The notes under the pieces: generated by a model
Told to the model about the DNA's origin: nothing
The model's database searches: none
What the model saw: the letters and a program-made list of their open reading frames with translations, nothing else
Shown here: piece after piece, positions 12,159 to 58,500 of the stretch
Position numbering within the stretch: position 1 is the first letter of the stretch
Layout: each line of letters opens with the position of its first letter
Virus record (IMG/VR): IMGVR_UViG_3300031963_000027
Coordinates: 62,001 to 126,000 of that record
Direction: 5' to 3' (one strand)
Source of the DNA: a virus
Length of the DNA: 64,000 bases
Made by a program: the position numbers and the translations under genes

Positions 12159-12159
12159 T

Positions 12160-13731: not shown

Positions 13732-13745
13732 TAGGTTGTTTATAA

Positions 13746-14930: not shown

Positions 14931-14951
14931 TAAATAACACAGAATAAAACA

Positions 14952-15491: not shown

Positions 15492-15507
15492 ACTCTCATT
15501 TATATGA

Positions 15508-15551
15508 ATATTCTTGTGTTATATTTTTTATATAAATTGACACAAGAATAT
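15508..15551 (+). promoter_or_regulatory. 12-bp inverted repeat abutting a start codon
   Basis: ATATTCTTGTGT (15508-15519) is the exact reverse complement of ACACAAGAATAT (15540-15551), with a 20-base AT-rich loop. The right arm ends 4 bases before the ATG at 15556 and would cover the ribosome site. It may act as a translation-controlling hairpin or a regulator-binding palindrome. TTGACA overlaps the right arm but no well-spaced -10 is visible. Confidence 0.5.
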
Positions 15552-15555
15552 AAAA

Positions 15556-16383: not shown

Positions 16384-16386
16384 ATT

Positions 16387-16424
16387 AAAAGAAGCTGTTG
16401 GTTTAATCATCAACAGCTTCTTTT
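16387..16424. terminator. Bidirectional terminator between converging arms
   Basis: AAAAGAAGCTGTTG (16387-16400) is perfectly complementary to CAACAGCTTCTTTT (16411-16424) with a 10-base loop. A runs on the left and T runs on the right let it stop transcripts from both strands. It lies where the + strand arm (stop 16383) meets the - strand arm and forms the last codons of gene 16403. Confidence 0.88.
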
Positions 16425-17182
16425 AATTCTTCTCTATGTGTTTTTATTGTTTGTTTGTCTACTTGATGTAGGACTGGTTGAGATATTCCTCCTAATAATA
16501 AAGCATCCCATAAAGAACTCTTCATCTTTATTATTGTTATTAAATCTCTAGCTACTATTGGATTATAAGCTCCAATAGTATTAACTATATCAGCTATAAG
16601 TGTTCTCATAGACTGCGCTCTTATTTGTGTTGAAACAAACTTATCTGCTGTTTCAGTTAACTGTCTCATCTCTTTGAAGAGTTCAATTAATACTTGTTCT
16701 TTTGTAGTAGATTTATTTTTAAAAGCTTTATTACCAACTAAGGAAATATCATCTAATAAAGTAGATAACTTTTCATATAAGTCTTGATATCTGGAACTTG
16801 CATCAAAGATTGATCCAATTTTATTCTCATTTGGTTTTACATATAAACTGTTAGTTTCTTTATATGTAGTCAACCACTTATCTATATCTTCTGGTGTTAT
16901 TGTCATTCCAGCTAATGTAGATAAAGAATTAGCCATACTTGCTACTGTCTGTCCTGCTTGATAAAACTGAATTAAATAACTGGCCAAACCAGCTTGATCA
17001 ATTACATTAGTAGGAATAATATTAGGCATGTCTAATTTATTTGATTCTTTTAAATTATCTTCTAAATAATCTATGTCTGCTAATATTAGTTGATAAGCTT
17101 CTTCTCCAATTCTCTCATCAATAGTTAGTTGATCTCTTAAATCTTGCTTAATCTTTTTAACAAATAAATGAGCATCAATCAT
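16403..17182 (-). CDS. Hypothetical protein, 259 residues, helical
   Basis: Unrecognised. It is almost wholly helical, with no membrane segment. SMANSLSTLAGMTITPEDIDKW looks like a short helix-turn-helix and LIADIVNTIGAYNPIVARDL is an amphipathic segment. It is the last gene of the - strand arm; its 3' end forms the bidirectional terminator. It touches the upstream gene by one base, so the two small genes may work together, for example as DNA-binding packaging or regulatory proteins. No signature proves this. Confidence 0.55.
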   Translation of the reverse strand: MIDAHLFVKKIKQDLRDQLTIDERIGEEAYQLILADIDYLEDNLKESNKLDMPNIIPTNVIDQAGLASYLIQFYQAGQTVASMANSLSTLAGMTITPEDIDKWLTTYKETNSLYVKPNENKIGSIFDASSRYQDLYEKLSTLLDDISLVGNKAFKNKSTTKEQVLIELFKEMRQLTETADKFVSTQIRAQSMRTLIADIVNTIGAYNPIVARDLITIIKMKSSLWDALLLGGISQPVLHQVDKQTIKTHREELKEAVDD

Positions 17183-17580
17183 TATTCAAGACCTTTTTCC
17201 ATTCTAATTCTTATGTCTATTGGTTCTAAAATAGTGTCAAAGTCTTCTAGATTTACATACCTTGCAATTAGATATTGCATTATTTGATCTACTGCTTTGT
17301 CTGCTCTTCTTTTAACAGTAGAACTGTTTAAGAATTGAGAGTCTGCTATTGCTTGTCTACTTCTATCGCTAGTTGTTAGATACATTAGAATTTTATAATT
17401 CTCTGGATTTATACTTGCCATCCATTTTTTAGCGGAGTTTACCTGATTCCAACTAAATTCATGTATTAAAATTCTTCCTTCTTCTTCAAACTTATATAAA
17501 AAAGGCATCTTCCACGGATACTCCTTTTTTAAATAATTAAAAAGCTTGATTCTTCCTGAGTGCGGCTGAGCCATTTTCAT
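17182..17580 (-). CDS. Helix-turn-helix protein
   Basis: A 132-residue protein. RQAIADSQFLNSSTVKRRAD (about residues 74-93) reads as a helix-turn-helix of the sigma-4 or LuxR-like type. The N-terminus is basic and aromatic (KLFNYLKKEYPWKMPFLYKF). It could be a transcription regulator or a small-terminase-like DNA binder; TerL and the nuclease lie upstream. ATG 17580 and ATG 17574 are both possible starts. A 21-bp palindrome lies 51 bases upstream. Confidence 0.55.
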   Translation of the reverse strand: MKMAQPHSGRIKLFNYLKKEYPWKMPFLYKFEEEGRILIHEFSWNQVNSAKKWMASINPENYKILMYLTTSDRSRQAIADSQFLNSSTVKRRADKAVDQIMQYLIARYVNLEDFDTILEPIDIRIRMEKGLE

Positions 17581-17630
17581 GTTTCCTTTATGTTTATGTT
17601 TTAAAATCTTTGACTTATTTATATATAAAT

Positions 17631-17680
17631 AATATAAATGCCTATATAGTAAATGATTATACTATATAGGCATTTATATT
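17631..17680. repeat. Perfect 21-bp inverted repeat
   Basis: The left arm, 17631-17651, is an exact reverse complement of the right arm, 17660-17680, with an 8-base loop. The core is AATGCCTATATAGTA. It lies between the nuclease gene and gene 17182. On the - strand it could end the nuclease transcript, but no long U tract follows. TATAAT is formed across the loop, so it could be an operator or promoter palindrome. Confidence 0.75.
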
Positions 17681-17700
17681 GCAACTAATTATGTGTTAGA

Positions 17701-18759
17701 TTAAATTAACTTAGCTGCTATTTCAGGATGACATAAAGCTAAAAAAGCACAAGGCCTATGAAACTGATCTAAGCATGGAGAAGAGTTAGTCATTTGTTTA
17801 TTTGGAATTTTCTTCTCATACTTTTCTGCAATTATATCTTTATGCACAGAGGTTAGTTGAGATATTGCTTGCTCTCTAAATGTAGGAACCATCTCAGATA
17901 AGATTAGTTTATTACTTCTAAGATTATAAACTCCAATATACTTTGGCTGTTCTCCTGTTAATTCTTCATATGCGTGACTATACATTAATAGTTGATCATT
18001 GTAAGCTATATCAACTTCTTGATAGTCTTGTGCGCCACTCTTATAATCTATAATAGCAATTTGTCCATCTTGCAACTCTGCTACCAAGTCTATATAAGCT
18101 TCTAGTATTGGCCCATCTTTTCCAGTATTAGGAGTAATAATTACATTTGTTTCTGGTGAAAATGCTAACTCAACTCCTAGTATTTTCTTAATTCTAGGAT
18201 CTAGATTAAACTTATTAGCAACCTTTATTACTGTGAGAACTAAGTCAAAAAAGTCTATGTTTTCCCATCTACCATCAACTGATCTAATATATCTATTTAT
18301 ATTATCTTGTAAATCTGATAGTTTTAATTTGGCTATTTCTTTTTTCCAAGCGGCTGTCATTTCAGGTGCTTGTGCTACTGTTCCATCACCCTTTCTAATT
18401 GGGAAATTACCTGTATAGCCTTCTGAAGCTCTTTCATATAATTCTTTTATTATGTTGTAATAAGCTTCTACTTGTTTAATTTGTTCTGTTAAATCATGTA
18501 CAAATACTTTACTTAATACTTCATTGGTTGAAGAAAGTATAGTTGAATCAGATAGGGTGCAAGGAGGATTATCTATGCCAATAAAAGGAGAATAGTTATC
18601 TTCTAATATCTGGTGTAATGAACTGCCAATTAGTGTGGCTTTAGATAAACTATTATCTCTTAGTTTATCTACATATTTATATTTAAATAAGGTAGAACAT
18701 ACATGATATGTTCTAAGGCGGCTTACTGAATAAGTGGCAGATCTTGTAGTGTCAGACAT
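17701..18759 (-). CDS. Cas4/RecB-like PD-(D/E)XK nuclease with Fe-S cysteines
   Basis: A 352-residue protein. The N-terminal SVSRLRTYHVCSTLFKYKYV contains C21. GSSLHQILEDNY holds the family His (49). The active site is YIDLVAELQDGQIAIIDYKS (motif II D, motif III DYK). A C-terminal Cys triplet, C329, C337 and C343 (PCLDQFHRPCAFLALC), matches the one-plus-three cysteine Fe-S staple of AddB and Cas4 nucleases. Phage members act in recombination or DNA end processing. It is coded in the packaging region, downstream of the giant protein. Confidence 0.82.
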   Translation of the reverse strand: MSDTTRSATYSVSRLRTYHVCSTLFKYKYVDKLRDNSLSKATLIGSSLHQILEDNYSPFIGIDNPPCTLSDSTILSSTNEVLSKVFVHDLTEQIKQVEAYYNIIKELYERASEGYTGNFPIRKGDGTVAQAPEMTAAWKKEIAKLKLSDLQDNINRYIRSVDGRWENIDFFDLVLTVIKVANKFNLDPRIKKILGVELAFSPETNVIITPNTGKDGPILEAYIDLVAELQDGQIAIIDYKSGAQDYQEVDIAYNDQLLMYSHAYEELTGEQPKYIGVYNLRSNKLILSEMVPTFREQAISQLTSVHKDIIAEKYEKKIPNKQMTNSSPCLDQFHRPCAFLALCHPEIAAKLI

Positions 18760-18802
18760 TATTTGTGTTGTTTGGTTTATTTGAATATATTATAACATAT
18801 AT

Positions 18803-21800
18803 TTAGGTATTAATAATTCCATCAATAACTTTAGTTCCTCTCTTTATATTGAACTGTTGTAATGCAATTTGTTCACTATCTCTAGAACTTGTTTGTGTAA
18901 ATTCTAAGGTTGTTTGACCTTTATCTGTTTTTCCTTTAGTAACCTTTGTTGCTGCTTGAATGTTTGGTGTTCCATCATTTATAAGTTGAATGTGTGGATT
19001 AGGTACTATATGACTTCCAACTACATTTAATGCTAAGTTTTTCTTAGTATTAATCTCATTAACATCATTAGCCATTTGACCCATCTTAGTACTAACCTCT
19101 CCTAACTTAACAATTGCTTCTCTTGTTATAGCGTTTATCTCTGTTGATCCTATAATAGGAGCAGAGGTTATCTTTCTATTTTCAAGTTCTACAACTCTAT
19201 TGATCTGACCTTCCCATGCTTGTATTTGTAATCTTTCTGTAACAGACATATATTTAGATACTAATGCATGATTTAACTTGTCATCCATTCTTGTGTTCCA
19301 AAATTGTTTACCTGTTACTAGTTGATTATAAGCTTTACCTCTAATAGCAAATGCAAAGTCCTGAGATGGATCAACAGATCCTGGTCCATATCCTTCAGCA
19401 GTAGCAGCATATCCAGTCATAGGAGCATCAAAAGATGTAACAAATCTACCAGCAGTCTTTCTGCCAGTTGGATCATCTAAGGTGTCTATTTGTGCCATCC
19501 ATTCTTGTTTCATTGCATCATTTACTGTGCCTTGAAATAGAGGATTTCTATAGTCTTTATCCCTATACTTTGTATCATTATATATTTGATTGGCAGGTTT
19601 AAATAGATAAGATCCTGGCGCTCCAAACATCTGTGTTGGTAAGTTACTAAGATTAGATGCAAAGTCATCTGCTGTCTCAGGACTGTTAAGTATCCAAACA
19701 ATTTGTACTGCAGTTAATACTAAAGAAGCAACTAAACCCCAAGGTCCTGCTGCTACTCCAGAAATAGCTTTTAATCCAGCTCCTGCAAATTTTGCACCAG
19801 TTACTAATCCTTTAATTGCCATTCCTTGTGCTGTCTTTTGTATTGCAGCGTTTCTTATTGCTGTACTAGCACTCTGTATAAGACCTACCTTAGCAACTTG
19901 TTCTGTTATCTTAGAAGTGATAGTCTTTGCAACTATAGTTTGTCCAATCTTATTGGCTATAAATGGAGTTACTAATGTACTACTTAAAGAATCTAATGCC
20001 TGTAAACTAGCACCTTCTAATCTGTTATTCTTAGAGTCTAATGAGTGTCCTAAACCAACTCCAAATATTAAAGCACCAATAGCTGCAACTCCCGCATTAA
20101 TTAGATTGCCTGTCTTTAAGTAGTTAAGAGTTCCTCCAATACCTAAAGCTAAACCTCCAACAATGTTTATAACTCCACTTTGGTTTTGAATATTTCTTAT
20201 TACTTGTCTTCCTCCTTGATAAAAGTCATCCATCTTAGAAGTAATATATCCACCCAACTCAGGACTTAAAGAAGATAGGGATGATCCAGCTAAGTCAAAT
20301 ACACTTCTACCAGCTAAGGTTAAACCAGCTAATCCTATAGAAACTCCCCAAGTTTTACTTGCTTTGAATAATGCTATAGATGATGCAGCTAAAGTAATAC
20401 CTACAGCACCAGCAGTAATTCTTCCTCCAGTTCCATTATTCTTAAATAGTAAATCATAGCCAAAGAAACCAGCAGCTAGTCCTCCTATTCCAGGAATAAT
20501 ACTCTTCTGAATTGACTGATTCATTAATAATGTACCAAAGAATAAAGCCCCCCATATATTGTCAAAGCTTTCTTTGGCCATTTCTTCTCTGGCCATTTCT
20601 TTTTCTCTTTCTCCTGTTTTACTAGAAGCTACACTAGCTGCAGCTCTAAATGTTAATAAGTTAGTACTAACAAACATAGCCATTTGATAGCCATTCATTA
20701 GTACTGTTCCCATTCTAGATAAACCCTCTAGAAATGTTAAACCTGCAGTAGTCTGTAATGCTTTAGGTGGCACTCCTACTGGCATACTTCCCTGAAGTCC
20801 AGATCTAGTATTTTGTTTTATATCAAGTTCAATAGCTTTTGCAACTTCTTCTTGTAACTCTTTAGTGGGGACATTAAACATACCTCCACCATATTTTCTT
20901 ACATTGTCTAATACTTCTTTAGATGCATCTGTTGCTTCTAAAGTCATTCTGGTTATTAGATCTCTGTTAGTTCCTCCACTAACTATATTTAATAATCTAT
21001 CAAAGACAGCAGTTAAACCAGTTCTCTTTGTTGAAATGATTGTGGTTAATCTATCTTTAATCTGTTCTCTAAGATGTAACTTGTTATTAAATCTTTGATC
21101 TACTGATACTTTATTAACATAATCTTCATCAATTATTGCTGTGCTGTTTAACTCCCTTCTAACAGAATTAGTATAAATATTGTCTGCATCTTGTATAAAA
21201 GCTGCTTTAATTCTTTCATCAATAACATCATAGTAACTATCAATAACAATATCAAATTTGGCAGCATATACTTCTGTCATAAGATCAATAGAATGTCTCA
21301 TATTAGGGCTTCTATCTTTGCCAAATATATTGAAACCTCCTCCAAATTTTCCTGCCGCTTTAGATATGAATTTATCAGCTTTAGCTTCTAATAAATCATC
21401 ATAAGTAAAGCCTTTATAATATTTATCTACAAAGTCTGCTTTAGCTATAGGAGTTTTAGATTCAGCATTATAAGCATCATATTGACCCTCTAAATAAGCA
21501 TCAAGAACTTGCTTATTAGTATAATCATCTAATAAGTGTTCTGTTATTTTATGTGTTGTATGATTATAAGTTATAGTTTCATCTAGGGTTTCTGAGAACA
21601 TTACAGATTTAAATTCTCTAGCATGAGTTCTAGCTATTCTGTCATCTCTAGTAGATAATCTAGTTGTTTGACTTGGTGCTGATCTAGTTTCTAACTCATC
21701 ATAAAAGTCATTTAATCTTGTTATTTGTTGAGTGTGTGCTTGTCCATAGTTCTTTGAATAGTCTCTATAAGCACTATCAAACTTCATAGATAAAGCTCCA

Positions 21801-24800
21801 CTTAATTCATTGATTTGACTTGTATATTTCTTAGCTTGATGATCTGTTAAGCCTTCAGCTATTGCAAATACAACTTGTGTTCTTCTTAGTAATAAGAATT
21901 TACCTGCCGCCGCTTTTAATTCTTCTGCTTCATATAAATGTTTAGAGAACCACTTTCCTTCATCAAAGTACTTATGTTGTTGTTCCCATAATAATGTATT
22001 GTCTTTTGTTACTTGACCTTGACTGGCTTTAGTGGCAGCAACAACTGATATAGCAGCAGTAACTAAACCAAGAGAACCTATTCCAACTGCCATTATAGGC
22101 AGCCACATAAATGGTGGAAGAGCTTGAGTTAATCCTTGCAATGAAGATGTGTCTCTAACTTTTGTTAGAAATTCTCCAGCTCTTTCAAAGAAGCTTTTAT
22201 TTGAATCATATTGATTTGCTGTTGATTGAATTGCAATTCCTTGCATCTCCATAAAAGCATTTTCATTATCACTGTCTTGTATAGACATTTTAGCTGCTAT
22301 AAAAGGATTAGAGTTAGATGCTAAACCACCTATTTGTTTTACAGTTATTTCACCTCCCATAAAGAAATTTTGATTTATCTCTCCTAATCCAGTCTGACTT
22401 CCATTGCTTGATATATCTTTTAATGCTTTATAGAACTTACCTTGCATATCTGGTGAAGCTATGTTCATATTATTCATTAAGGTATATAAAGCTATGTTTA
22501 CATTAGTACCATAAGATAATGCTTGTAGTCTCTTATATCTTTGGTTGAGAGACATTGCTAAAGCTTTATTAGTAGTCATAGCTTCTAATGTATATTTATT
22601 AGGAGATGTAAACTTAATTCTATCTTTACCTGATCTTGTTGGTTGGCTATATACAGCAGTAATAATGTTAGAAGCAAACTGTCTTAGTTGTGCTTGATTG
22701 TGTCCAGCAGCATCATCAATTCCTCTTAAATTAGCAATAATATTCTGTGCTAAGAAACCTTTCTTAGCTAATTCTTGTAGTCCAAATACAGATGACATAC
22801 TATACATTGCAGATGAGAAATCTTGTGATGCTGATTGTATTTGGAAATAGTCTCTAAGTCTTACATCACTATCATCTGGTCTTATTGTTATACCACCAAC
22901 AGCCACACCAATAAAGGTATTTGGTGAATTTACAATTATTAAATTACTCAATTGTTTTAGTGAGTTGTTTATTGCTCCTTTAGTTGTACTGTCTGGATTT
23001 ATTAAGAATTCACCTTTACTATTATGTAAATTAGGTCCTACTAAACCTTTAGCAATGTCATAAGAATGGGCTCTATCATACTTTGTTTGTAGTTTAACAA
23101 AGTCTACTACACCTTTTCTAAAGTTTGCCCAAGGTGTGTTGCTGTCTTCATCTGCTCCTATTAAAGCATCTTGAAAGTCCTTATAACCCATGCCTTGAGA
23201 TGCCCAATTTAAGCCATGAAATGTTAGTCCAAGTAAGGCTGTAGTTCCGCCTAATCTAGCCCATCTTTCTATATGAACTCTATTACTAGCAGATCTATTT
23301 ATACTCATTCCTTTTAACACTGCTGAGGCTGGTTGATTGTTAGCAGGATTACTAAACTTATCTAACTCAGCTAATACTGCTGAAGCTTGGTTATTCTTTA
23401 TAATTGAGTTTAAGTCTGTACCAGCACTTATATCTAAGGACTGTAAACCTTTATAGACATTATTAGATCTATTACTTGTTATTTGTTTAATGTTTGAATA
23501 TGGATCACTTACATTAAAAGCATTTTTGAATATCTTTCCTTGTGCATCTTCTACTGCTTGAATAATAGGAGAGTTGCCCATTCCTTCTTCTATTATTATT
23601 TGTACTTCTCTTGCTTCCATGTTTAACTTATATGTTTCATACTTTAAGCTTAGAGATTGTATAAAGCCAATATTCTTCTTTCCTATTGGCACTTGTTGTA
23701 GTCTTTCTACAACAGTTAATCTATTCCTAAATCTCTCAACAATTTGTTCAGGATTAATATCTGCAAAGATTAAACTCTTAGGATTAAAGGATGTAACTCC
23801 TGCTGTTAATGCGAATAAGGTTGCACCAAAAGCAACAGTTGTCATTCTTCTTGTATTGTCATATTTATCTTCTGTTTGTTTTGTTAAATCTCCAAATGCT
23901 ATTTCTGGATTTACTTTGCCTGATGTTGGATCTGTTATAAAATGATTCCACAAAGCTCCAACAGCTAGTAAGCCTAATCCTTTTCCTACTTTATTTTCTA
24001 ATGTTCCTGTTTGGAATACAGCACTTTGTTTTACAAAGCCTCCAAACTTGCCTAATGTATTTCTATATAAACCTTTAAGACTGTTATTAGAATACATCCA
24101 AGCAACTAAAGGATCTATCTTTGTTTTGTCAAATCTTGCACTTGTAATATTTAATTCTGACTCTAACATTGCTAGTCTTCTAGAGGCTGCTATTGTACCT
24201 TTAGCATAACTAATACCTCCTATAAGAGCAGCTCCTGCCATAATAGAAGCACCTCTTAAAGCAAAGTTTCCATCTTTATCTTCTTTCTTATTTGTAAAAG
24301 GTTGAGATAATGTATTAATAACACTATATAAGTGATTACCAATAGCACCTCCCATAAAGGCACTAAATACAACAGGCACAAATGATGTTGATCTTAATCT
24401 TAAGCCTGGCATCCTAAAGTCACCAGTTGTTAGATTAAGAGACTGAGCAGCTATATAGAAAGGCAATGTAGCAATCCCTAAGAACTTATCTCTGGCAGCC
24501 CTTGTTGATTGTGTTATTAAAGATTCAGTGGCAACAACAGTTCCAGTTGATTTAAGTATTTGATGGTTTCTTCCCCATATTCTATTCCTTACTAAGGTGT
24601 TAGATACTCCTATACCAACTCCACTCCATAAGGCTACTTGGCTATAGATGTTATAATAATCTTGTAAGCTTAAGGAGTCCTTATTCCCTTCATTAAGTAT
24701 TAGACCAGTTCCTAGATAACCAGTTTTAATGGTTACATTATCAGCACTCTTAGCATTCATTGCAAATGCAATTGGAAAGCTTACATTAATAGGTGCTACT

Positions 24801-27800
24801 CCAACAGCAGGAGGTCCTTGTAAACCTAAGTTAACAGTTGTATAACTACTACCATTACTATCTACTACCTTTTTAATTACACTGTAATATTGAAATATAG
24901 GCAGAGGAGATTGTGTAGCAGTTACATATGCAGTGCTACCTTTTTGAGATGATGTAATTGGATTAATAATCTTACCTAAAGCTACTGCTAATAAGGCAGC
25001 ATTAACTTCAAGTGGTGATATAGAATCACTAATAGAAGCTGAACCACCATCTGAGGTTCTAGCTTGATCTATTCTTTTATTAACATGTTCTACATAACTT
25101 CCAAGTCTAGCTATAGCTGTTTGATTTGTTTCATCTAGTTTTGGCCCATTTATATCACCTTGGAAAGGGCTTAGTCTGTTCCAATAAGCTATTCCTAATC
25201 CTATAAGACTAATTGCTGTAGTTGTAATAGGATTTCTACCAAATAGGTTAGCCGCTCCTTGTAATCCTTTTAGTAATGTATTACCTAACATACTTGTAAC
25301 TTTGTAGTTACTATATCCAAGTTTACTACCACTAACCATATGTAATGAGTGAGCCATATTATCTATAGTTGTAGTAACACCAAATGCTATGGCAGGAGCA
25401 GCTAAAAATGCAGTAGATAAAACAGCAGAACCCATTAAGTTTCTTTCATTGTTAATGGTAGAACTAATCACATATCTAGCAGTTTGCATTGCTGCTAAGG
25501 TTAAGCCTAAACTAATAGAGAAAGATGTCCAGTTCTTTGCAACTTTAGCATTAAGAGCACTTAGTCCTGTTATATTTCCATTTTCCCTTACAACATTAAA
25601 ACTTAATTCTTTACCACTAATTAATTTAACTGTAACTGCATTTTTACCAGCAGACAAAGTTGTAAGTTCAGCCATAGTTGCAGACTGAACAGCTTGACCA
25701 TTTACTTCTGCTATATTATCTAATAAAGCTTGTCCAGTAAACATCTTTCCATGTATTTCAGGTGTGCTAGTAGATGCATGATCATACGCCCATCTAACTA
25801 TTCCAGCCATTGTAACTAAACTTTGAGTACCTAATACAAAGTTAGCAACATGATCATTAGCACCAGCCATCTTTACTAATTCAGCAGCAGAGAAGAAGTT
25901 AGTGCTTTGTAATTCAATTGATGTGTTAGTTGTTCCTCTATTTAGTTGTATTTGAGCTAAGGTAGATGTTAGTAAGGAGGCTCCAGTTGATTGAGCAAAC
26001 TCTGTTAATACTAATTGAGGTATGAATAAAGCACCAATAATCCACTTAGCAGCAGCTAATTTAGTACTAGATATCTTCATACCTACATAACTATTTCCCT
26101 TGTCTAAATGGTTTAATAAGAAACCAACACCACCTGAGCTGTGTGTTTTATTAGCATAAGTATATAAAGCATCGTCTAAAGTTATAGTTCTAAGGCCTAC
26201 TCTTTTGCTTGATAAAGCTTTCCATTTAGCCTGATATGTTGCTTCATTGTCTAATAATTCTTCCACTGATACCGCATCTAATGCATTAGTATTAAACACA
26301 TCAAAACCTCTAGCAGATCTATTCTTTGCAGAATCTATAGAGTTATTTGTTCTTACTTTTACATTATCTTCTAAGTTTATTTCTGCTTGTGAGTATGTTT
26401 TACTAATCTTACTAATGTCTTCTAAGTCTCTTTTAGATTGGCCACCTCTAGTATTAAAAGATAATATAGATCTGGTCATTGTTGCTATATGATTCATTAT
26501 TCTGAAGGCAGGATAGGAGGCTTTAGTACCATTCTCACTGAACAACATAAACTCATTAGCTGCGCCCCAAAAACCTTGATTGTTTAATGATGCATTAACA
26601 TATCTGGCAAAACCTTCAATGTCTAATAAGTTACCAATCATAGGAGCTGTTACATTGTCTTTTCTGCCAGCAAATATTCCCCATGCCCAAGGCATAGGGA
26701 CTAAGTTGATTACTCCTTGTATCTTCTTAGCAAGCATCATGTTTCTTTCTATAGAAACATTGGTTATCTTTAATTCATATTGTTTGTTAACTGCATCATT
26801 AATCTCCTTAACAACATCAGATGTTGGTTTGATAGTTGCATCATTACCTCTAAGAATATCTATGGCTCTGGGTATATTAAAAGTTTTACCAGAAGCTGTT
26901 GTTATGTTTACTGTGTTCCAATCAATTGATTTGGCTCCACTAGTTATAACTTCTCCAGCTCTATCAATAATCTTTATGTCAGCAGGTGATTGTAATACTT
27001 CTAGGTAATCATTAGTAGCAGAAATTAAGGCTTTAGATTTATTAGAGCCTAATGTATATGGATTAATCTTACTTATTAAGAATTCTCTTGCAGTTGCTGA
27101 GAAGAAGAAACCACCTCTTTGTCTTTGATAGTTATCTAAATAATAAAGAGAGAATGTAGGATTATCTAATGAATAGTAAGCAGTTGTTGCACCCTTAACT
27201 TGTCTTTCAATGACAGACATTTTAAAGCCAATATTATCATTGTCTGTTCCTCCTAATGCCCACTTAGCAGCTTTATTTGTATCAGCAGCTTTAATAAGAG
27301 CCTCTTGACTATTAAGTAAAGCTCTAGAAGCCATTGCTTTAAGTGGCTCTCCAACTGCTAGATAAACTCCAATAGAGGAGGCGGTAGCCAATACAGTAGC
27401 AGCACTATTTGCAAGTAAATCTTGAAAGAAACTTGTCTTAGTTGTAAAGTAATTTTCTCCATCATCTTTGTAGCTTCTTAGTACTGGATTATTAGTTAAA
27501 TATGATTGATCAATGAGCGCACCAACTGCACTAAATAGAGAAGGAATTGGTCCTCTTTCTTCTTGTAATACTCTACCCATACCATTAGGTATAAAGAAGA
27601 ATTCATTTATTCTACTCATTAATGATGGTGAATTGACAGCAAAATCAAATGCTTTAGCTACTGCTACTTCATCTCTTGATAAGTTATTATTAGTCTTACT
27701 AGCTCTAAGTATGCCTTCATATGTTCCCATATCTTCAGCATCAACAACAGATGTAAACCTACCTGATGCTCTCATAGAAGCATTATATCTAGCTAATTCA

Positions 27801-29089
27801 AATTGTTGTGAATGAGTTTTCTTATTACTAATAACTAAACCTCTATATTCCTTATCAGTGTCATATAAAGGAGCTAATAAAGGATTGTGTATACCCTTAG
27901 CTCTAGCATTAATAACAGCCTTACTCTCAAAACTACTGTTTATATCATCTAAGTTTACATGTAATAATCCTTTACCATCTTTAGGCGCATCATATACATT
28001 TTGTAATATTTGTTCTTCTACTTCTGGATCTAGATGAGGAAATAACCTTTTCATTCCTGTTAGTTCTCTAATCTGTCTACCATCTGCAAGTTTATAATCC
28101 TTCCAATTATCTTTTACATTTTGACTGTTAGGCATTATAACAGCAATAGTTTTTGTGTCTTTTGTTATTGTTGTTTGTCCTGGCTCTAATACAACGGCTA
28201 CCTTCCATAAAACTTTAGGTACTTCTACTCCATTAATACTCTCAACATAACCATTCTTACCAATACCTCCTTTACCAGCACCACCTGTTATAATTTGAAT
28301 CTCTCTTTCGGTATAACCAAATAAAGGAATGCCAAAAGGTCCTTTACCTTCATGTACTTTATTGTTTAAATAGTGTTCTAAATCTGCCCAAGGACCTGCA
28401 TTAACTTCATGTGCTTGTGCTAACATGTTAGTCATTACATATGTAGAAGAGTTAATTCCTACAGTACTTGTAAATGCAGCAGAGTTAGCCAAGTGACCTC
28501 TATCAAATCCTTTAAATCCTGTAAAGTCAACCTTCTTAAAGTTAGACGGTAGATTTGTATCATTTCTAAAATCATTCTGTCTACTAACATTACCTAAGTT
28601 ATTTTTTGTCAGTTTAAAAGCAACCCAATTAGGCCTGCCTTTTTCATTGTTGTAACTAGTAACAAATTGAGATCTGCCTTCTACTTTATTTTCTAATATG
28701 TAGTTATTACTGTCAGATGTATTAGCTCCCGTTGGATTGCCAATAAGTGATAGATTAGAATTGTTTTTATAGTTATAGCTGTCATTGCCAATATAACTTT
28801 GTTCTACTATTCTTTTATTTGTCTCTACATGTACATCTAAACCAGTTAGATCAAAAGAATAACCAACCTTAGGAGCATTTCCATAGCCTCTTAGATAATC
28901 ATTGTATCTACTTTTATTATCACTAAATGCAGAGAAGTTTCCTACTCTATCCTCAAATAACTTTCCTTTATATTGCCAATCCCAATTACCTTTGTTATAA
29001 GATGATGTTGCATCCTTAATAGCAAATGAGCCATAACCTAAAGTTGTGGCTCCTATTCCAGTGGCAATTGCAATATTAAGTAAACTCAT
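18803..29089 (-). CDS. Giant 3428-residue protein: N-terminal DNA/RNA non-specific nuclease plus many hydrophobic segments
   Basis: The N-terminus (about 95-335) is a complete DNA/RNA non-specific endonuclease domain: GFDRGHLANSAAF with the DRGH catalytic His at ~199, TNMLAQ, and N230 in VNAGPWADLE, the metal-binding Asn. The remaining ~3000 residues are helical and hold more than twenty hydrophobic stretches, for example PPFMWLPIMAVGIGSLGLV, GIGGLAAGFFGYDLLF and WGLVASLVLTAVQIVWIL, separated by polar, often coiled segments. No conventional tape measure lies between tube and hub, so this may be the tape measure; at about 0.15 nm per residue that would mean a tail near 510 nm. The alternative is an ejected pilot or channel protein that delivers a nuclease. 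It lies right after TerL and a 275-residue gene. Confidence 0.8.
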   Translation of the reverse strand: MSLLNIAIATGIGATTLGYGSFAIKDATSSYNKGNWDWQYKGKLFEDRVGNFSAFSDNKSRYNDYLRGYGNAPKVGYSFDLTGLDVHVETNKRIVEQSYIGNDSYNYKNNSNLSLIGNPTGANTSDSNNYILENKVEGRSQFVTSYNNEKGRPNWVAFKLTKNNLGNVSRQNDFRNDTNLPSNFKKVDFTGFKGFDRGHLANSAAFTSTVGINSSTYVMTNMLAQAHEVNAGPWADLEHYLNNKVHEGKGPFGIPLFGYTEREIQIITGGAGKGGIGKNGYVESINGVEVPKVLWKVAVVLEPGQTTITKDTKTIAVIMPNSQNVKDNWKDYKLADGRQIRELTGMKRLFPHLDPEVEEQILQNVYDAPKDGKGLLHVNLDDINSSFESKAVINARAKGIHNPLLAPLYDTDKEYRGLVISNKKTHSQQFELARYNASMRASGRFTSVVDAEDMGTYEGILRASKTNNNLSRDEVAVAKAFDFAVNSPSLMSRINEFFFIPNGMGRVLQEERGPIPSLFSAVGALIDQSYLTNNPVLRSYKDDGENYFTTKTSFFQDLLANSAATVLATASSIGVYLAVGEPLKAMASRALLNSQEALIKAADTNKAAKWALGGTDNDNIGFKMSVIERQVKGATTAYYSLDNPTFSLYYLDNYQRQRGGFFFSATAREFLISKINPYTLGSNKSKALISATNDYLEVLQSPADIKIIDRAGEVITSGAKSIDWNTVNITTASGKTFNIPRAIDILRGNDATIKPTSDVVKEINDAVNKQYELKITNVSIERNMMLAKKIQGVINLVPMPWAWGIFAGRKDNVTAPMIGNLLDIEGFARYVNASLNNQGFWGAANEFMLFSENGTKASYPAFRIMNHIATMTRSILSFNTRGGQSKRDLEDISKISKTYSQAEINLEDNVKVRTNNSIDSAKNRSARGFDVFNTNALDAVSVEELLDNEATYQAKWKALSSKRVGLRTITLDDALYTYANKTHSSGGVGFLLNHLDKGNSYVGMKISSTKLAAAKWIIGALFIPQLVLTEFAQSTGASLLTSTLAQIQLNRGTTNTSIELQSTNFFSAAELVKMAGANDHVANFVLGTQSLVTMAGIVRWAYDHASTSTPEIHGKMFTGQALLDNIAEVNGQAVQSATMAELTTLSAGKNAVTVKLISGKELSFNVVRENGNITGLSALNAKVAKNWTSFSISLGLTLAAMQTARYVISSTINNERNLMGSAVLSTAFLAAPAIAFGVTTTIDNMAHSLHMVSGSKLGYSNYKVTSMLGNTLLKGLQGAANLFGRNPITTTAISLIGLGIAYWNRLSPFQGDINGPKLDETNQTAIARLGSYVEHVNKRIDQARTSDGGSASISDSISPLEVNAALLAVALGKIINPITSSQKGSTAYVTATQSPLPIFQYYSVIKKVVDSNGSSYTTVNLGLQGPPAVGVAPINVSFPIAFAMNAKSADNVTIKTGYLGTGLILNEGNKDSLSLQDYYNIYSQVALWSGVGIGVSNTLVRNRIWGRNHQILKSTGTVVATESLITQSTRAARDKFLGIATLPFYIAAQSLNLTTGDFRMPGLRLRSTSFVPVVFSAFMGGAIGNHLYSVINTLSQPFTNKKEDKDGNFALRGASIMAGAALIGGISYAKGTIAASRRLAMLESELNITSARFDKTKIDPLVAWMYSNNSLKGLYRNTLGKFGGFVKQSAVFQTGTLENKVGKGLGLLAVGALWNHFITDPTSGKVNPEIAFGDLTKQTEDKYDNTRRMTTVAFGATLFALTAGVTSFNPKSLIFADINPEQIVERFRNRLTVVERLQQVPIGKKNIGFIQSLSLKYETYKLNMEAREVQIIIEEGMGNSPIIQAVEDAQGKIFKNAFNVSDPYSNIKQITSNRSNNVYKGLQSLDISAGTDLNSIIKNNQASAVLAELDKFSNPANNQPASAVLKGMSINRSASNRVHIERWARLGGTTALLGLTFHGLNWASQGMGYKDFQDALIGADEDSNTPWANFRKGVVDFVKLQTKYDRAHSYDIAKGLVGPNLHNSKGEFLINPDSTTKGAINNSLKQLSNLIIVNSPNTFIGVAVGGITIRPDDSDVRLRDYFQIQSASQDFSSAMYSMSSVFGLQELAKKGFLAQNIIANLRGIDDAAGHNQAQLRQFASNIITAVYSQPTRSGKDRIKFTSPNKYTLEAMTTNKALAMSLNQRYKRLQALSYGTNVNIALYTLMNNMNIASPDMQGKFYKALKDISSNGSQTGLGEINQNFFMGGEITVKQIGGLASNSNPFIAAKMSIQDSDNENAFMEMQGIAIQSTANQYDSNKSFFERAGEFLTKVRDTSSLQGLTQALPPFMWLPIMAVGIGSLGLVTAAISVVAATKASQGQVTKDNTLLWEQQHKYFDEGKWFSKHLYEAEELKAAAGKFLLLRRTQVVFAIAEGLTDHQAKKYTSQINELSGALSMKFDSAYRDYSKNYGQAHTQQITRLNDFYDELETRSAPSQTTRLSTRDDRIARTHAREFKSVMFSETLDETITYNHTTHKITEHLLDDYTNKQVLDAYLEGQYDAYNAESKTPIAKADFVDKYYKGFTYDDLLEAKADKFISKAAGKFGGGFNIFGKDRSPNMRHSIDLMTEVYAAKFDIVIDSYYDVIDERIKAAFIQDADNIYTNSVRRELNSTAIIDEDYVNKVSVDQRFNNKLHLREQIKDRLTTIISTKRTGLTAVFDRLLNIVSGGTNRDLITRMTLEATDASKEVLDNVRKYGGGMFNVPTKELQEEVAKAIELDIKQNTRSGLQGSMPVGVPPKALQTTAGLTFLEGLSRMGTVLMNGYQMAMFVSTNLLTFRAAASVASSKTGEREKEMAREEMAKESFDNIWGALFFGTLLMNQSIQKSIIPGIGGLAAGFFGYDLLFKNNGTGGRITAGAVGITLAASSIALFKASKTWGVSIGLAGLTLAGRSVFDLAGSSLSSLSPELGGYITSKMDDFYQGGRQVIRNIQNQSGVINIVGGLALGIGGTLNYLKTGNLINAGVAAIGALIFGVGLGHSLDSKNNRLEGASLQALDSLSSTLVTPFIANKIGQTIVAKTITSKITEQVAKVGLIQSASTAIRNAAIQKTAQGMAIKGLVTGAKFAGAGLKAISGVAAGPWGLVASLVLTAVQIVWILNSPETADDFASNLSNLPTQMFGAPGSYLFKPANQIYNDTKYRDKDYRNPLFQGTVNDAMKQEWMAQIDTLDDPTGRKTAGRFVTSFDAPMTGYAATAEGYGPGSVDPSQDFAFAIRGKAYNQLVTGKQFWNTRMDDKLNHALVSKYMSVTERLQIQAWEGQINRVVELENRKITSAPIIGSTEINAITREAIVKLGEVSTKMGQMANDVNEINTKKNLALNVVGSHIVPNPHIQLINDGTPNIQAATKVTKGKTDKGQTTLEFTQTSSRDSEQIALQQFNIKRGTKVIDGIINT

Positions 29090-29100
29090 TTTTTTATTAG

Positions 29101-29928
29101 TTAGAAAGAAGAAACAGTATTTTGTAAGAATGAACTATTATTAATATAAATGTTCTGAGGAAATAAACTATTCTTAAATAGTATTTGTTTAATATCAACT
29201 GGCTTTACATAGTTAATTGTAAACACTTGGCCCAGAGGAACATTAGTTGTTAGAAGAGTATCAGTTGTATTTTTATAGTTTATTGCTGCTTGTATAAGTG
29301 CATGTTCTGTTAGAGTTGTATCTACTGTAATAGTGTTACTAATTGAATATGTAACTGGATTTACAGTTGGAGATGTAACAGTATATAGTACATGTATATC
29401 AGGATGATCTAATAAGGATATGGGCGCTCCAGTAGATGTTAGAGATAAGCTTAAAGACTTGAAAGATCTTGATAAATTTAAGTATTGATAATTTACTAAA
29501 TATCTATTAGATGGATGTGGTATTAACCAATACTCAGTCTTTAATAGTCTATGTCTTAGTGGTGGTCTTTTATATGATTTAGGAAATATCATAGGCTGCC
29601 ATTCCCAGTATTCAACAATATAACAAGAGCCTTCTCCCCATCCAACTGTAGGTTGTAACCCTACTCTTATTTGATTTTTATATATGCCTTCCCAAGGAAT
29701 ATTATAAACAAAGGTTCTAGGAATATACTCAGTATCATTTCTAATAGATGTTGGTGGTTTTATTTTTAAGTAATATCTAGGGGCTAATTTTATTGGTTTA
29801 GTTACTAGATTTAATATGTTATCAGTTGTTAATGGTGTTTGTAGTGTGCCTACTGGAATAGGAATGATAGGGTCTACTGATTCTTCTATAAATTCCTCTA
29901 CTGTAAATATAACTGGTGTCTTAATCAT
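29101..29928 (-). CDS. Hypothetical structural-type protein
   Basis: A 275-residue, beta-rich protein, high in Thr, Asn and Tyr, with no transmembrane segment (PRYYLKIKPPTSIRND, PSNRYLVNYQYLNLSRSF). The composition resembles the neighbouring virion proteins, so a tail or connector component is likely. It is directly behind TerL, with only the stop and ATG touching, and ends 12 bases before the giant gene. Unrecognised. Confidence 0.5.
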   Translation of the reverse strand: MIKTPVIFTVEEFIEESVDPIIPIPVGTLQTPLTTDNILNLVTKPIKLAPRYYLKIKPPTSIRNDTEYIPRTFVYNIPWEGIYKNQIRVGLQPTVGWGEGSCYIVEYWEWQPMIFPKSYKRPPLRHRLLKTEYWLIPHPSNRYLVNYQYLNLSRSFKSLSLSLTSTGAPISLLDHPDIHVLYTVTSPTVNPVTYSISNTITVDTTLTEHALIQAAINYKNTTDTLLTTNVPLGQVFTINYVKPVDIKQILFKNSLFPQNIYINNSSFLQNTVSSF

Positions 29929-32115
29929 TTAATAGCCTCTATATGTATTTCTTTCTTTATGTTGCTGTAATCTATTTATAGAGCTTCCTACAGTTATTTT
30001 TCTAGGAGTATTAATATTAATAAGTTTAGGAGCTTTTAGTTCAATCTTATTAATTAGATTACAATTAGAACCATATGTATAAGCTTCAAATACTGATACT
30101 GCTAATGCATCTGGTAAGTCCTTTGTACCATATGGGTGAACTATTTGACCATTATCTTTAATAACTAAAGAAGGTAAATCTGTTTTTATAAGAGCTGTCC
30201 AAGGACTATCAATAGGAAATAATACATCTCCTCTTTGTATTAATTGTCTTAATAAGTTGTAGTAAGCTAATTGTTTTTCTCTAGAGAATGAAACAATTTT
30301 AGTATTAAGTCCTCTACTATATAAGTTTTGATTGAGAGAAGAAGAGTTAAAACCATCAAATGATATAGACATGATGTTCATATATTGGCTTATATATATT
30401 AGTATTTCTTCTATATTTATATAAGATACTTCTCTAAATTTACCCTTCTCATCAATGCCTGGTGTCCAACATGCAATGCCAATAACTTCTATTTGTCCTC
30501 TATTATTAATAGTAGCTATAGACATAGCAGTAGCATCTTTCTTTAAACTTGTATCTACATGTATAAAACAAGCTGTATTTACATTAGATATTCTATTGAT
30601 TTTAATGCCTCTATAATGTCTATCTTCTATGTCTAAGTTATATTCCATTACATCTATTGAAGACTGTAAAGAACATAATTTATCTAATAAATCAGCTTCT
30701 AGAAAGGAATTATCATTACTGCTTCTTATATTTTCATATTCTAATCTTGCTCTTTTAGGTTCTGAAGAATAATCAGATATAATGTCTGGATTACTTCTAG
30801 TTATAGTAGGATTAACATCAAAACAAGTTAGTTCTAATATAAGCGAGTAAGGGTCACCAGCAGCTTGATGTTTTAATGTTACCATTGGATCTGTAAAAGA
30901 CCATGCAGAAGATACTACTATTTTTTTACCTTCTCCTTTGAATCTGTTGAGTGCGCGGCCCACATTTTGATAAATGTTAAGTCCTGTGTTTAAACCATCA
31001 CCAGTAGTTTCAAAACGAGCCATTTCATCTATAAATAATAACTTTAAGTTATATCCTACAAGTGCTTTTGAATTTGTATGCTTAGCATAAAGAGATATAA
31101 ATTTATCAGGACATCTAATCTCATCACTAAGTACTACTATTTTCTTCTTTTTAATCAGGGATTTAAAAAAGTTAGAACTATCAAGAAATGATTTAATAGC
31201 TTTGAAACTAGTTTCTAATACTTGTGCTTCTGTTTGTGCTATAGCAAAAAGGGCAATTGGAGAGAATGACATTAGACCATAATGTAAACCTGGATCAGGC
31301 AATGAAATTAATTTGTAAAATTCATATAGACAAATAATAGAACTCATTGATGATTTACTGCTGTTATGACTAACAATAGAATTGCCTATTATATGAGTGT
31401 CTTCTACTTCAAATCCAATAATGTTTTTATATCCAATAGCTTTAACTTTAACTACTTCTTCCCATTCAATAACATACTCTGTGTTGGAAGAGGCAAATGT
31501 TAAATTGTTTAATACAGCTACTTTATCTTTCTTATTTAAGTCTTTTATTTGTATCCAACAAGGGCCAAATGCAGTTTTTACTAAGTAAGGATGATCACTT
31601 GTTACTTCCTCTGTTTTACCTGATTTAAGTGTAATACTATAAGCTTTTTGTAAGCCCTGATCCCATGTTCTAAATTTGTTAGTTGTAAATACTTTATAAG
31701 TTATTGAATCAACTGTATAAATGTATATATCTTCATCTTTTCTCTCATGCAATTCTTTATATGTAATAGTGCCAACAGAGGTAATTATGTTAGAAGTTTC
31801 TACTGGGCAGCCACGTCCTGCTTCTAGTATTAAGTTTGTATACTTTCTTCCATTGATCCAATTAGTCTTTCCTTGTTCTCTCCATCTGTCTAATATATCT
31901 ATATGTACTTGATCTAGTGGCTCATTATAGATGGCTTTTAATATTGCCTCTTGTGTGGGCCATAGCTTCGTTGTAGAGTCATTAAATAGTATTGAATTAG
32001 CAAAGGTAACAATGTCTATATTGCTACCTTGTGGAGTGTTTATTGAGGCTTCTGTGAGATCTGTTAATAGATCATTTAAGAAGTCTTTAGTTGTATAATC
32101 TGCTTGTGGTCGCAT
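29929..32115 (-). CDS. terL: Terminase large subunit with an in-frame mini-intein
   Basis: A 728-residue precursor. After removal of residues 103-251 the extein is 579 residues, a usual TerL size. The spliced P-loop reads EAGRG-SSKSSMSSI. Walker B is LLFIDEMARF, and KIVVSSAW fits the coupling motif. The C-terminal nuclease has FIHVDTSLKKDATAMSI, SISFDGFNSSSLN and KDLPDALAVSVFEA. TerL is the motor that packages DNA into heads. Unusually, it lies downstream of the tail genes and next to the giant protein. Confidence 0.92.
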   Translation of the reverse strand: MRPQADYTTKDFLNDLLTDLTEASINTPQGSNIDIVTFANSILFNDSTTKLWPTQEAILKAIYNEPLDQVHIDILDRWREQGKTNWINGRKYTNLILEAGRGCPVETSNIITSVGTITYKELHERKDEDIYIYTVDSITYKVFTTNKFRTWDQGLQKAYSITLKSGKTEEVTSDHPYLVKTAFGPCWIQIKDLNKKDKVAVLNNLTFASSNTEYVIEWEEVVKVKAIGYKNIIGFEVEDTHIIGNSIVSHNSSKSSMSSIICLYEFYKLISLPDPGLHYGLMSFSPIALFAIAQTEAQVLETSFKAIKSFLDSSNFFKSLIKKKKIVVLSDEIRCPDKFISLYAKHTNSKALVGYNLKLLFIDEMARFETTGDGLNTGLNIYQNVGRALNRFKGEGKKIVVSSAWSFTDPMVTLKHQAAGDPYSLILELTCFDVNPTITRSNPDIISDYSSEPKRARLEYENIRSSNDNSFLEADLLDKLCSLQSSIDVMEYNLDIEDRHYRGIKINRISNVNTACFIHVDTSLKKDATAMSIATINNRGQIEVIGIACWTPGIDEKGKFREVSYINIEEILIYISQYMNIMSISFDGFNSSSLNQNLYSRGLNTKIVSFSREKQLAYYNLLRQLIQRGDVLFPIDSPWTALIKTDLPSLVIKDNGQIVHPYGTKDLPDALAVSVFEAYTYGSNCNLINKIELKAPKLININTPRKITVGSSINRLQQHKERNTYRGY
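31363..31809 (-). mobile_element. Mini-intein (149 residues) inside TerL
   Basis: Block A starts with Cys103 (CPVETSNIITSVGTITYKEL). Block B is VTSDHPYLV with the TxxH histidine. Block F/G is GFEVEDTHIIGNSIVSHN, ending His-Asn251, and the +1 residue is Ser252. Both splice-junction codons were checked in the DNA (TGC at 31809-31807 and AAC at 31365-31363). All splicing residues are present, so it should be active. No homing endonuclease is present. It sits in the Walker A loop, a known hot spot where splicing is needed for activity. Confidence 0.92.
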
Positions 32116-56007: not shown

Positions 56008-58500
56008 TTAAAGTATGTCTCCTATTGCTATTATTTTTGTTGTATATCCTGCATCATTTCCACCAGCTTTAAGAGAGTGGGTTATTGCTCTTATTTTATA
56101 CATTGGTAAAACATCATTTACTTGGCTAGTTTCTTCTCCAGAAGTTTGTCTTATGTTTGATAAGGCTTGATCTAAAGTAACTATCTTTTCTTGTTGTCCA
56201 ACTTGTTTTATTTGTTGAGACTTAATCTTTTGAACTTCATCATATAATGTCTTTAAGAATAAAGATTGAGCACCATCATTCTTAAAGGTTAAAATACCAT
56301 TACTATGAAGTACTGTATTATAAACTCTAATAGCTTCACCAGGATAAAATGATGAGTCTCCAATTACCTTCATTATCACTGTTACATTGTCTCTAGCCAT
56401 AGTAGAAGCTGTTGTTAAAGCTAGGGCTTGAGCGGCTGCTGCAGTACTTGTACCAACTAACTCTTTGCTAGCATTTTTGATTTTAGGATCAACTATTATA
56501 TGTTGTTTGATTGGTATCTTTTTATTCTTTGTATTAGCAGAAGCAACATCTACAACACTTACAATATCCTTTAATGAAGAGTTAGTAGGATTATTAAAGT
56601 CAGCACTAGACACAGTGAATCTGTTATATACTCCAATAGTACTTGTTGTAACTCTTATATCTTTTATAAGACTTCTTGACTCTGGTACTTTGTCAAAACA
56701 ATCAAAGAAGAAGTACAGTCTATTACCTCTTTCTTCATCTGTTAATCCGGCTGTATCTAATATTCTTGGCGCAAACATAAAGTGTCCATTAACATGAGAA
56801 CAAAAGAAATCAATTGGCATTACTTCTGTATTAGCTAAATAACTTAATATCTCAAAGGGGGACTTATTAATTATCTGCATTGTTGTAGGGCCACTTCCAG
56901 CTACTAAGGGTGGTTGTAAAGTCCATATATGAAATAAAGGATCATAGGGATTAGCTTCATTCTGTAGAAAAGAATTGGCTATAACCCATCTTGCTGGATC
57001 TTCTATTGCAGCCGCAAACTTTATTCTTTCTTCTGCTAATGCATTTGTATTTTCTTGTATTGATTTAACTTGATCTGATACTCTGCCTTTCTTAGGATCT
57101 TTTGAATCCTTATAAGCATTATCCCATAAGGTAATAATAGAACCAGGATTAAAGTTTTCCCTCCACTGAGATGATGTTGCACTGGTATAACTATTATCTA
57201 AATAAATACCTCCATTAGATGCTCTATATACTCCTTCAATTGTTTTATGTCTAAGTCCTTCAAAAACTCCTTTTTCATCACTTCCAGTATTTAAAAAAGG
57301 AATAGTTATAATTTTTGTATCAGCAAGTATTCTACTTCTGTCTCTTAGATTGTATATAATTTGTACTCCTGCAGAGATGTTGCCAATAAAGTCTACAGAG
57401 TCAATAAACCCCCAGAATATAGGTGCTAAAGGTTTTTTAGAATCATATTCTCCAATAGCAACTTTATTAAATAGTTGATACTTACTTATTAACAATTCAA
57501 GTTGACCTTTAGCATTATTAATAAATGCTTTAAAGGAGTTGTCATCTGTTATTACTAGGTTTGTCTTTCTTTCTAATAGCTTAAATTCAACTGCAAATGG
57601 GACTAACTTAGCTCTTCCAACTTCAGGAGCAACAACAAACTCTCCATTTATATTAGTTAATACTTGTTTTATCTTATCTAAGTCTTTACTGTTTTGTGCT
57701 CTAAAAGGAGTATCTACACTTATATCTGCAATCTTATCTAGATCTTTTAATATAGTTTCATAATTAGTTACTGTTTTAACTTGATCTTCTGTTAATTCTT
57801 GTTTATTATCTGTTTTAAAATAGTTAAATTTAAAGGGATATTGTCCTAAATCATCCATGCTTACACAAGTATTAGATTTATAACCAGCATATATTCTAAC
57901 TTCATCATCTACTCCTAAAAATCTACCTCTAGGTAATAAACTATATTCCACTTGTTTACCTGTACTGTCTCCTTTCTTTGGACTTAGTTGATAGTTAAAA
58001 CCTTGTTCAATCTCTTTTAAAGAAGGTATACTTCCATCATTATTTAACTTACAAGTAATAATTAGTTTAGCTTTACATATAGGCCAATCTCTAGTTACTT
58101 CTACTTCTGCATCTCTTAAGAACCAGCTAGATTGTATTGATAAATCACTAGAAGATGTTGGCTGAATTTCTACATTAGAGTATACTAAATACTCTGTATC
58201 TAAAACTTTTGATTTATTATTATTACTTGTTAAATTTAAACCAGTTAATTTAAGCTCAAGATCTGATTTCTCTTTTCTAGCTTTTTCCTTTCCTGCGAAG
58301 GCAGAATCACTAAAAGCAATATCACTAATATACTCATCTAACTTTTTTATTTCTTCTTTTAATTTTGCAATTTCTACTGTATTATCAATTCCTGTTGGTT
58401 TTGTAGAGTCTTTAGGTTCTGGCACAATTCCTTTTCTATTACTTACAAATGTAACTGCAAATACTGGAGTTGGTTCTTCTGGTGTGTAATGTTTAGCCAT
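56008..58500 (-). CDS. Baseplate hub protein, gp27/gpD-like
   Basis: An 830-residue protein. The first ~110 residues are a helical and acidic front part. The N-terminal hub domain has LLPRGRFLGVDDEVRIYAGY and PIFWGFIDSVDFIG, a pattern common to baseplate hub (late-control D/gp27-like) proteins. NEANPYDPLFHIWTL and SPFEILSYLANTEVMPIDFF fit hub domain two. KVIGDSSFYPGEAIRVYNTV is the last OB-like part. It is the first gene after two tandem terminators. It ends one base before the spike gene. Confidence 0.75.
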   Translation of the reverse strand: MAKHYTPEEPTPVFAVTFVSNRKGIVPEPKDSTKPTGIDNTVEIAKLKEEIKKLDEYISDIAFSDSAFAGKEKARKEKSDLELKLTGLNLTSNNNKSKVLDTEYLVYSNVEIQPTSSSDLSIQSSWFLRDAEVEVTRDWPICKAKLIITCKLNNDGSIPSLKEIEQGFNYQLSPKKGDSTGKQVEYSLLPRGRFLGVDDEVRIYAGYKSNTCVSMDDLGQYPFKFNYFKTDNKQELTEDQVKTVTNYETILKDLDKIADISVDTPFRAQNSKDLDKIKQVLTNINGEFVVAPEVGRAKLVPFAVEFKLLERKTNLVITDDNSFKAFINNAKGQLELLISKYQLFNKVAIGEYDSKKPLAPIFWGFIDSVDFIGNISAGVQIIYNLRDRSRILADTKIITIPFLNTGSDEKGVFEGLRHKTIEGVYRASNGGIYLDNSYTSATSSQWRENFNPGSIITLWDNAYKDSKDPKKGRVSDQVKSIQENTNALAEERIKFAAAIEDPARWVIANSFLQNEANPYDPLFHIWTLQPPLVAGSGPTTMQIINKSPFEILSYLANTEVMPIDFFCSHVNGHFMFAPRILDTAGLTDEERGNRLYFFFDCFDKVPESRSLIKDIRVTTSTIGVYNRFTVSSADFNNPTNSSLKDIVSVVDVASANTKNKKIPIKQHIIVDPKIKNASKELVGTSTAAAAQALALTTASTMARDNVTVIMKVIGDSSFYPGEAIRVYNTVLHSNGILTFKNDGAQSLFLKTLYDEVQKIKSQQIKQVGQQEKIVTLDQALSNIRQTSGEETSQVNDVLPMYKIRAITHSLKAGGNDAGYTTKIIAIGDIL

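Follow-up and report, generated by a model that had tools for sequence, protein, structure and literature searches.

A giant cysteine-free protein with an exchangeable N-terminal nuclease module beside the terminase gene of a cyanophage-like virus

Tape measures and ejected pilot proteins are the two classes that come to mind for a viral protein in which a complete nuclease is followed by about 3000 further residues, and the question raised by this locus is whether such a protein belongs to either. The window analysed here, i.e. the whole stretch of 64,000 nucleotides, derives from a cyanophage-like virus and contains the giant gene as a single unbroken open reading frame on the minus strand, with its start ATG at 29089, the end of its stop codon at 18803 and a product of 3428 residues (Table 1). 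A plus-strand reading of the same interval is ruled out by stops throughout, so the gene sits on the minus strand. Two contigs from other metagenomes (L011 and L012) encode the protein with no amino-acid difference, which excludes an assembly accident and bears out the 3428-residue product of the initial annotation.

Table 1. Positions of the giant gene, its parts and its relevant neighbours in the window
Feature	Position	Strand	Remarks
Giant gene, family PHROG 29513	18803..29089	(-)	3428 aa, 0 Cys; identical in L011 and L012
Exchangeable N-terminal module, residues 1-389	27923..29089	(-)	Family body alignment starts near residue 390; module of 212-2327 aa in relatives
NucA-type DNA/RNA non-specific endonuclease domain (predicted), residues 133-345	28055..28693	(-)	PF01223 E=2.1e-33; PDB 2o3b/1zm8 E~1e-33
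DRGH motif, residues 196-199	28493..28504	(-)	Read from sequence
Conserved body, residues 390-3428	18803..27922	(-)	Colinear across family; pairwise BLAST
Conserved body block 1, residues 481-839, immediately behind the nuclease slot	26573..27649	(-)	
Conserved body block 2, residues 1950-2223	22421..23242	(-)	
C-terminal conserved block, residues 3086-3388	18926..19834	(-)	
275-aa gene just upstream of the giant	29101..29928	(-)	L041 counterpart 31% identical, E=1e-23; Ma-LMM01 gp119 counterpart weak
Terminase large subunit, upstream neighbour of the giant in the family	29929..32115	(-)	
830-aa gene between tube and hub	56008..58500	(-)	Hub-like by eye; 5 Cys, no hydrophobic segment

The nuclease is matched nearly end to end by the Pfam profile Endonuclease_NS (116.3 bits against a curated cut-off of 23, profile positions 15-213 of 223), which is the only Pfam domain found in the protein. 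The nearest solved structures, PDB 2o3b and 1zm8 (both entitled 'Nuclease'), match over the whole domain; we take them to be NucA of Anabaena. In the alignment to 2o3b the catalytic set is present as D196-R-G-H199, N230 (the metal-binding Asn) and E238, and the complete DRGH nuclease claimed from the letters of the window is thereby confirmed. Judged by its sequence, the domain is a NucA-like DNA/RNA endonuclease, complete and with intact catalytic residues, and is predicted to be active. NucA is a free-standing enzyme, whereas the window domain is part of a giant phage protein. The DRGH motif is replaced by QRGH in the related contig L015 and by DMGH in L066, with the His, Asn and Glu kept in both, so the activity may be weak or different in some members. 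The NuiA inhibitor was not found in the window's own contig, and the control genomes are equally silent.

The approximately 3040 residues that follow the nuclease module belong, by profile similarity, to the uncharacterised family PHROG 29513 ('unknown function', E=1.5e-21), which corresponds to gp120 of Ma-LMM01, a hypothetical protein of 2898 aa. Homologues occur in Microcystis phages, in the Microcoleus phage My-WqHQDG and in metagenomic phages; IMG/VR searches that used a body block and the terminase as queries recovered L015, L066, L031/L032, L041, L057 and L072 besides many Ma-LMM01-like contigs. Nine divergent members were compared. The body is colinear from approximately residue 390 to the end in all family members, its conserved length being kept at 2500-3000 residues among the relatives, and wherever a terminase is seen the giant lies downstream of that gene, separated from it by one gene or a few; in nearly all cases its position is one or two genes downstream. 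Ma-LMM01 gp120 shares with the window giant the body, the place behind the terminase and the absence of cysteine, but no nuclease is detectable in its N-terminal module (about 440 aa), the part that holds NUC in the window giant.

Beyond this family the body is isolated. No relatives of the giant were found in GTDB genomes, profile searches of the body against the PDB gave no match, and seven body blocks proved too diverged for one joint search pattern. A link to phrog_8809 (2317 aa), matched via SNase and M23 parts, was rejected as not specific, the same matches occurring in 11 of 14 control genomes. No NblA was found as a clue to the host. A description of a giant of the PHROG 29513 type was not found in the open literature, many subscription papers, the Ma-LMM01 genome paper among them, lying outside that search; we tentatively regard the family as undescribed. 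The neighbouring terminase carries in its ATPase P-loop (31363-31809, minus strand) a mini-intein-like insert of approximately 148 residues (GRG|CPVET...SHN|SSKSS), which matches an intein-splicing profile below the curated cut-off (E=2.5e-8); the insert is absent from L015, and L040 and L066 also match there. A second intein match (PF14890, E=4.5e-11, above cut-off) is located outside the window on the same contig (G000:26333-27334, plus strand), inside a 1182-aa frame that by our reading is likely a ribonucleotide reductase.

The module ahead of the body ranges from 212 to 2327 residues among the relatives and differs in its enzyme. NUC is present in the window, L015 and L066. Staphylococcal nuclease (SNase) takes its place in L031 (E=3.9e-12), L041 (E=9.2e-14) and L057 (E=1.4e-9), whose active-site Arg and Glu are by eye present, whereas the Microcoleus phage (E=1.1e-9) and L072 (E=3.4e-21) carry PLD, the latter alongside a GDSL lipase (E=6.9e-23). 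The L072 member (L072:2774-19228, plus strand) is a cysteine-free protein of 5484 aa in which GDSL lipase, HELAH peptidase-like motifs and long proline-rich linkers precede the PLD. L031 and the Microcoleus phage have bodies that are 71% identical over 2963 aligned columns, yet one carries SNase and the other PLD; at the very start the two proteins share 82% identity over 22 residues. The L031 version of the giant was found in two assemblies, and the body and terminase trees both pair it with the Microcoleus phage (100/100). On either tree the nuclease type changes at least four times if Ma-LMM01 is scored as PLD, and three times without that scoring (hand count, body tree). A PLD in Ma-LMM01 gp120, suggested by eye from HSK/HYNK motifs, was rejected, Pfam being silent and hhalign giving a probability of 0.65% (E=0.09); neither method detects a nuclease domain in this protein. 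From these comparisons we conclude that three unrelated nuclease folds are exchanged in the front module, ahead of a body that keeps its colinearity. A giant beside the terminase (11954-21724, plus strand) is also encoded by L062, a GC-rich and more distant phage; it contains PLD (E=2.5e-6) as well as a glucosaminidase in an internal position (E=5.8e-21). BLAST detects no body similarity between this giant and the family, and it may be a convergent or very distant case. Its glucosaminidase is a cell-wall enzyme, as expected of an entry protein.

The second peculiarity of the family is its composition. The nine members together contain no cysteine in 28,968 residues (L066 and L057 read in part). 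For the 3428 residues of the window giant approximately 25-27 cysteines are expected from the other ORFs of the window (0.80%) and from the late minus-strand ORFs (0.72%), and the chance of finding none is approximately 1e-11 to 1e-12. Among established ejected or tail-lumen proteins, cysteine is likewise absent from N4 vRNAP (3500 aa), T7 gp15 and gp16, lambda H, TM4 gp17 and P22 gp7, gp16 and gp20, and occurs once each in T7 gp14 and P2 gpT; two of the three tape measures checked lack it. By contrast, 1-11 cysteines were counted in the tail fibre, sheath, portal, hub and minor tail proteins examined from the same phages. By this analogy the lack of cysteine supports, but does not prove, ejection, the comparison set being small; nor is the argument absolute, because two other proteins of the window, the sheath (920 aa) and the product of a gene of 540 aa, are cysteine-free as well.

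The initial annotation described the body as membrane-channel-like, with more than 20 hydrophobic segments. This count is overstated: in a Kyte-Doolittle analysis with a window of 19 residues, the whole giant has 6 segments at a threshold of >1.6, 13 at >1.4 and 20 at >1.2. In the body alone there are 6, 13 and 19 segments against means of 4.2, 8.0 and 14.1 in composition-preserving shuffles at the same thresholds, only slightly above chance, and a membrane-channel-like body does not follow. AlphaFold models of two body pieces (1162 and 1180 aa) are largely helical, at a confidence too poor for use (pLDDT 36.5 and 41.8), and fold searches with them yield nothing at E<=0.001. Among the weak BFVD hits are several tape measures, close to worthless at E>0.001 and TM-scores of approximately 0.07.

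Concerning the tape measure, the window has the gene order sheath, tube, 830-aa gene, baseplate and peptidase, the same as in Ma-LMM01, and its tube is 51% identical to Ma-LMM01 gp92. The earlier statement that no normal tape measure lies between tube and hub mostly holds. The 830-aa gene located there was considered as a tape measure and rejected: in addition to its cysteines and its lack of a hydrophobic segment (Table 1), it matches no tape-measure profile and resembles a baseplate hub by eye. Outside the window no plausible tape measure of suitable size is present in the incomplete 128,561-bp contig, so the search for such a gene elsewhere, proposed with the initial annotation, leaves the giant a candidate by exclusion. 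In the same baseplate region, a gene at 53259-54404 (minus strand) combines a lysozyme-like part with an M23-type peptidase, and the adjoining 137-aa gene (54404-54817, minus strand) has a weak endolysin match (E=4e-4); both are read as local cell-wall enzymes for entry.

We consider the window giant to be, probably, a cysteine-free entry protein of the pilot or tape-measure class, carried inside the virion and ejected into the host by way of the contractile tail. We infer its virion location, ejection and orientation, as well as the activity and the target of its nuclease, from the combination of a complete nuclease, a colinear body, a locus beside the terminase, a slot with three folds, the missing cysteine and the glucosaminidase of the L062 giant. 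The alternative offered at the outset, a tape measure or an unusual ejected pilot protein, agrees best with the absence of cysteine, the late-operon place by the terminase and the lack of a better tape gene, and either branch would be a sub-case of the entry protein. As a tape measure proper, the giant would act as a rod within the tail tube, fixing the length of the tail and being ejected ahead of the DNA, with the nuclease at the head-proximal N terminus. This is possible rather than probable. It is favoured by the lack of another plausible candidate in the available contig, the gene between tube and hub not being tape-like, by zero cysteine, low proline and the largely helical low-confidence models, and nominally by the BFVD hits; lambda H, TM4 gp17 and P2 gpT are likewise long chains with no or one cysteine, and TM4 gp17 is annotated as an endolysin, hence also enzyme-bearing. 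However, the window giant has no detected homology to these proteins and matches no tape-measure family profile, and its gene is situated next to the terminase, approximately 27 kb from the tube and hub region, instead of in the usual position of a tape-measure gene. The ratio of length to tail is doubtful too: at approximately 0.15 nm per residue a tail of 435 nm is predicted for the Ma-LMM01-type giant of 2898 aa, versus 230-260 nm in the relative MaMV-DH01 (PMC9927357), which makes the 510-nm tail predicted earlier by the same rule doubtful. Nor would the nuclease be the first part injected, as had been supposed. In phage 80alpha (PMC11661146) the tape measure is oriented with its C terminus at the baseplate and its N terminus in the neck, next to the end of the DNA, and by analogy the N-terminal nuclease of a tape measure would leave last, just before the DNA.

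Packaging in the head as a pilot protein like N4 vRNAP or T7 gp16, with a smaller gene setting tail length, is the other sub-case and is likewise possible rather than probable. The gene adjoins the terminase, size and cysteine-free composition match N4 vRNAP, and a second giant of the clade combines polymerase-like with nuclease-like motifs and has 0-1 cysteines; on the other hand, the window giant matches no known ejection protein by sequence or by fold, and no inner body is known for these phages. It is unlikely that the nuclease acts only extracellularly or in the periplasm, e.g. on DNA in cyanobacterial mucilage or on the incoming DNA of a rival phage, and never reaches the cytoplasm. NUC, SNase and PLD-type enzymes are commonly secreted or periplasmic, and the phage's own intracellular DNA would be spared, but no secretion or surface-anchoring feature was found in the giant. 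Least credible, and very improbable, is a late non-virion protein that works inside the infected cell, e.g. in packaging or in host DNA breakdown. Its constant proximity to the terminase would suit such a role, as would a PD-(D/E)XK nuclease gene that adjoins the giant in the window and lies near it in several relatives; giant size, conservation of the whole body and family-wide lack of cysteine are unexpected for a cytoplasmic nuclease, however, and the terminase has, by eye, retained an acidic RNase H-like motif of its own at the C terminus.

For the ejected entry protein preferred here, the C-terminal ~3040 residues would represent a conserved delivery scaffold and the N-terminal ~390 residues an exchangeable effector slot, occupied in the window by the NucA-type DNA/RNA endonuclease. 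The giant would be made late and loaded into the particle. During infection it would pass the tail largely unfolded, the scaffold would engage the envelope, and the nuclease would refold at the DNA entry point and attack nucleic acid there, be it the host chromosome, RNA or a competing genome. The main difficulty is the DNA of the phage itself, which a nonspecific nuclease would put at risk where it enters; it could possibly survive by DNA modification, by delayed refolding or by action of the nuclease on the outside of the membrane. The motif changes in L015 and L066, the lack of a nuclease in Ma-LMM01 gp120 and the cysteine-free sheath of the window also count against the entry protein, as does a search of the open literature that yielded no proteomic sign of such a giant in virions.

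Three known systems offer comparisons. The N4 virion RNA polymerase gp50 (3500 aa, ejected; PMC12633501) is likewise a giant cysteine-free phage chain in which an enzyme is joined to non-enzymatic parts, but it is an RNA polymerase of a podovirus with no fold exchange and no detectable sequence relation to the window giant. Sle1-type effectors are tape-measure-related cargo of actinobacterial contractile injection systems with diverse exchangeable domains (PMC13277306). They resemble the window family in that functionally diverse domains are exchanged on a tape-measure-like scaffold, and differ in that these domains are C-terminal and belong to a bacterial nanomachine, whereas the window family has an N-terminal nuclease and occurs in phages. 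The likeness to N4 vRNAP and Sle1 would concern the working mode; homology to either is not claimed. Polyvalent proteins (Iyer et al. 2017, PMC5512222) are also giant phage proteins with several domains, and their delivery together with the DNA has been proposed, but their description makes no mention of SNase, phospholipase D, tape measures or Ma-LMM01, and none of their signature domains is found in the window giant by Pfam.

The second giant of the clade is represented by Ma-LMM01 gp080 (3562 aa), with orthologues of 3674-4838 aa as read in the contigs of L057, L041, L015 (a 3923-aa frame, read in part) and L072; the loci listed for this family are L068:8701-19389 (minus strand), L089, L090, L091 and L092. 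No match to this family is present in the window's incomplete contig. These proteins have 0-1 cysteines, an N-terminal HKD-like motif H-x-K-x4-[DN] and an invariant LGDFDGD, which by eye resembles the DbDGD motif of two-barrel RNA polymerases. On these motifs it is possible that the gp080 family is a giant virion RNA polymerase with a nuclease. Should this reading of the motifs hold, two giants may be ejected by the clade, both of them headed by a nuclease.

Giant ejected proteins and tape-measure-based effectors are known; the swap of nuclease folds on a conserved giant phage body appears to be new. Tentatively, at somewhat less than even confidence, we propose that this cyanophage clade and its relatives use cysteine-free ejected scaffolds with an exchangeable N-terminal nuclease (NUC, SNase or PLD, sometimes with lipase- or peptidase-like domains) as a phage counterpart to polymorphic-toxin cargo that attacks host or rival nucleic acids at genome entry, besides a second, DbDGD-bearing giant with its own N-terminal HKD-like nuclease motif. 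Ma-LMM01 gp120, among the largest unannotated proteins of Microcystis phages, thereby receives a function hypothesis in a phage that is culturable in the laboratory. Subject to systematic testing, the absence of cysteine over a giant chain may help to flag ejected proteins in phage genomes that lack annotation. If the giant enters the cell, it becomes testable how phage DNA is shielded from a nonspecific nuclease located where it enters, and whether the nuclease serves host takeover, exclusion of rivals or counter-defence; these phages would then carry ready-made nucleases on their infection machinery, in a position that evolves as a cassette slot.
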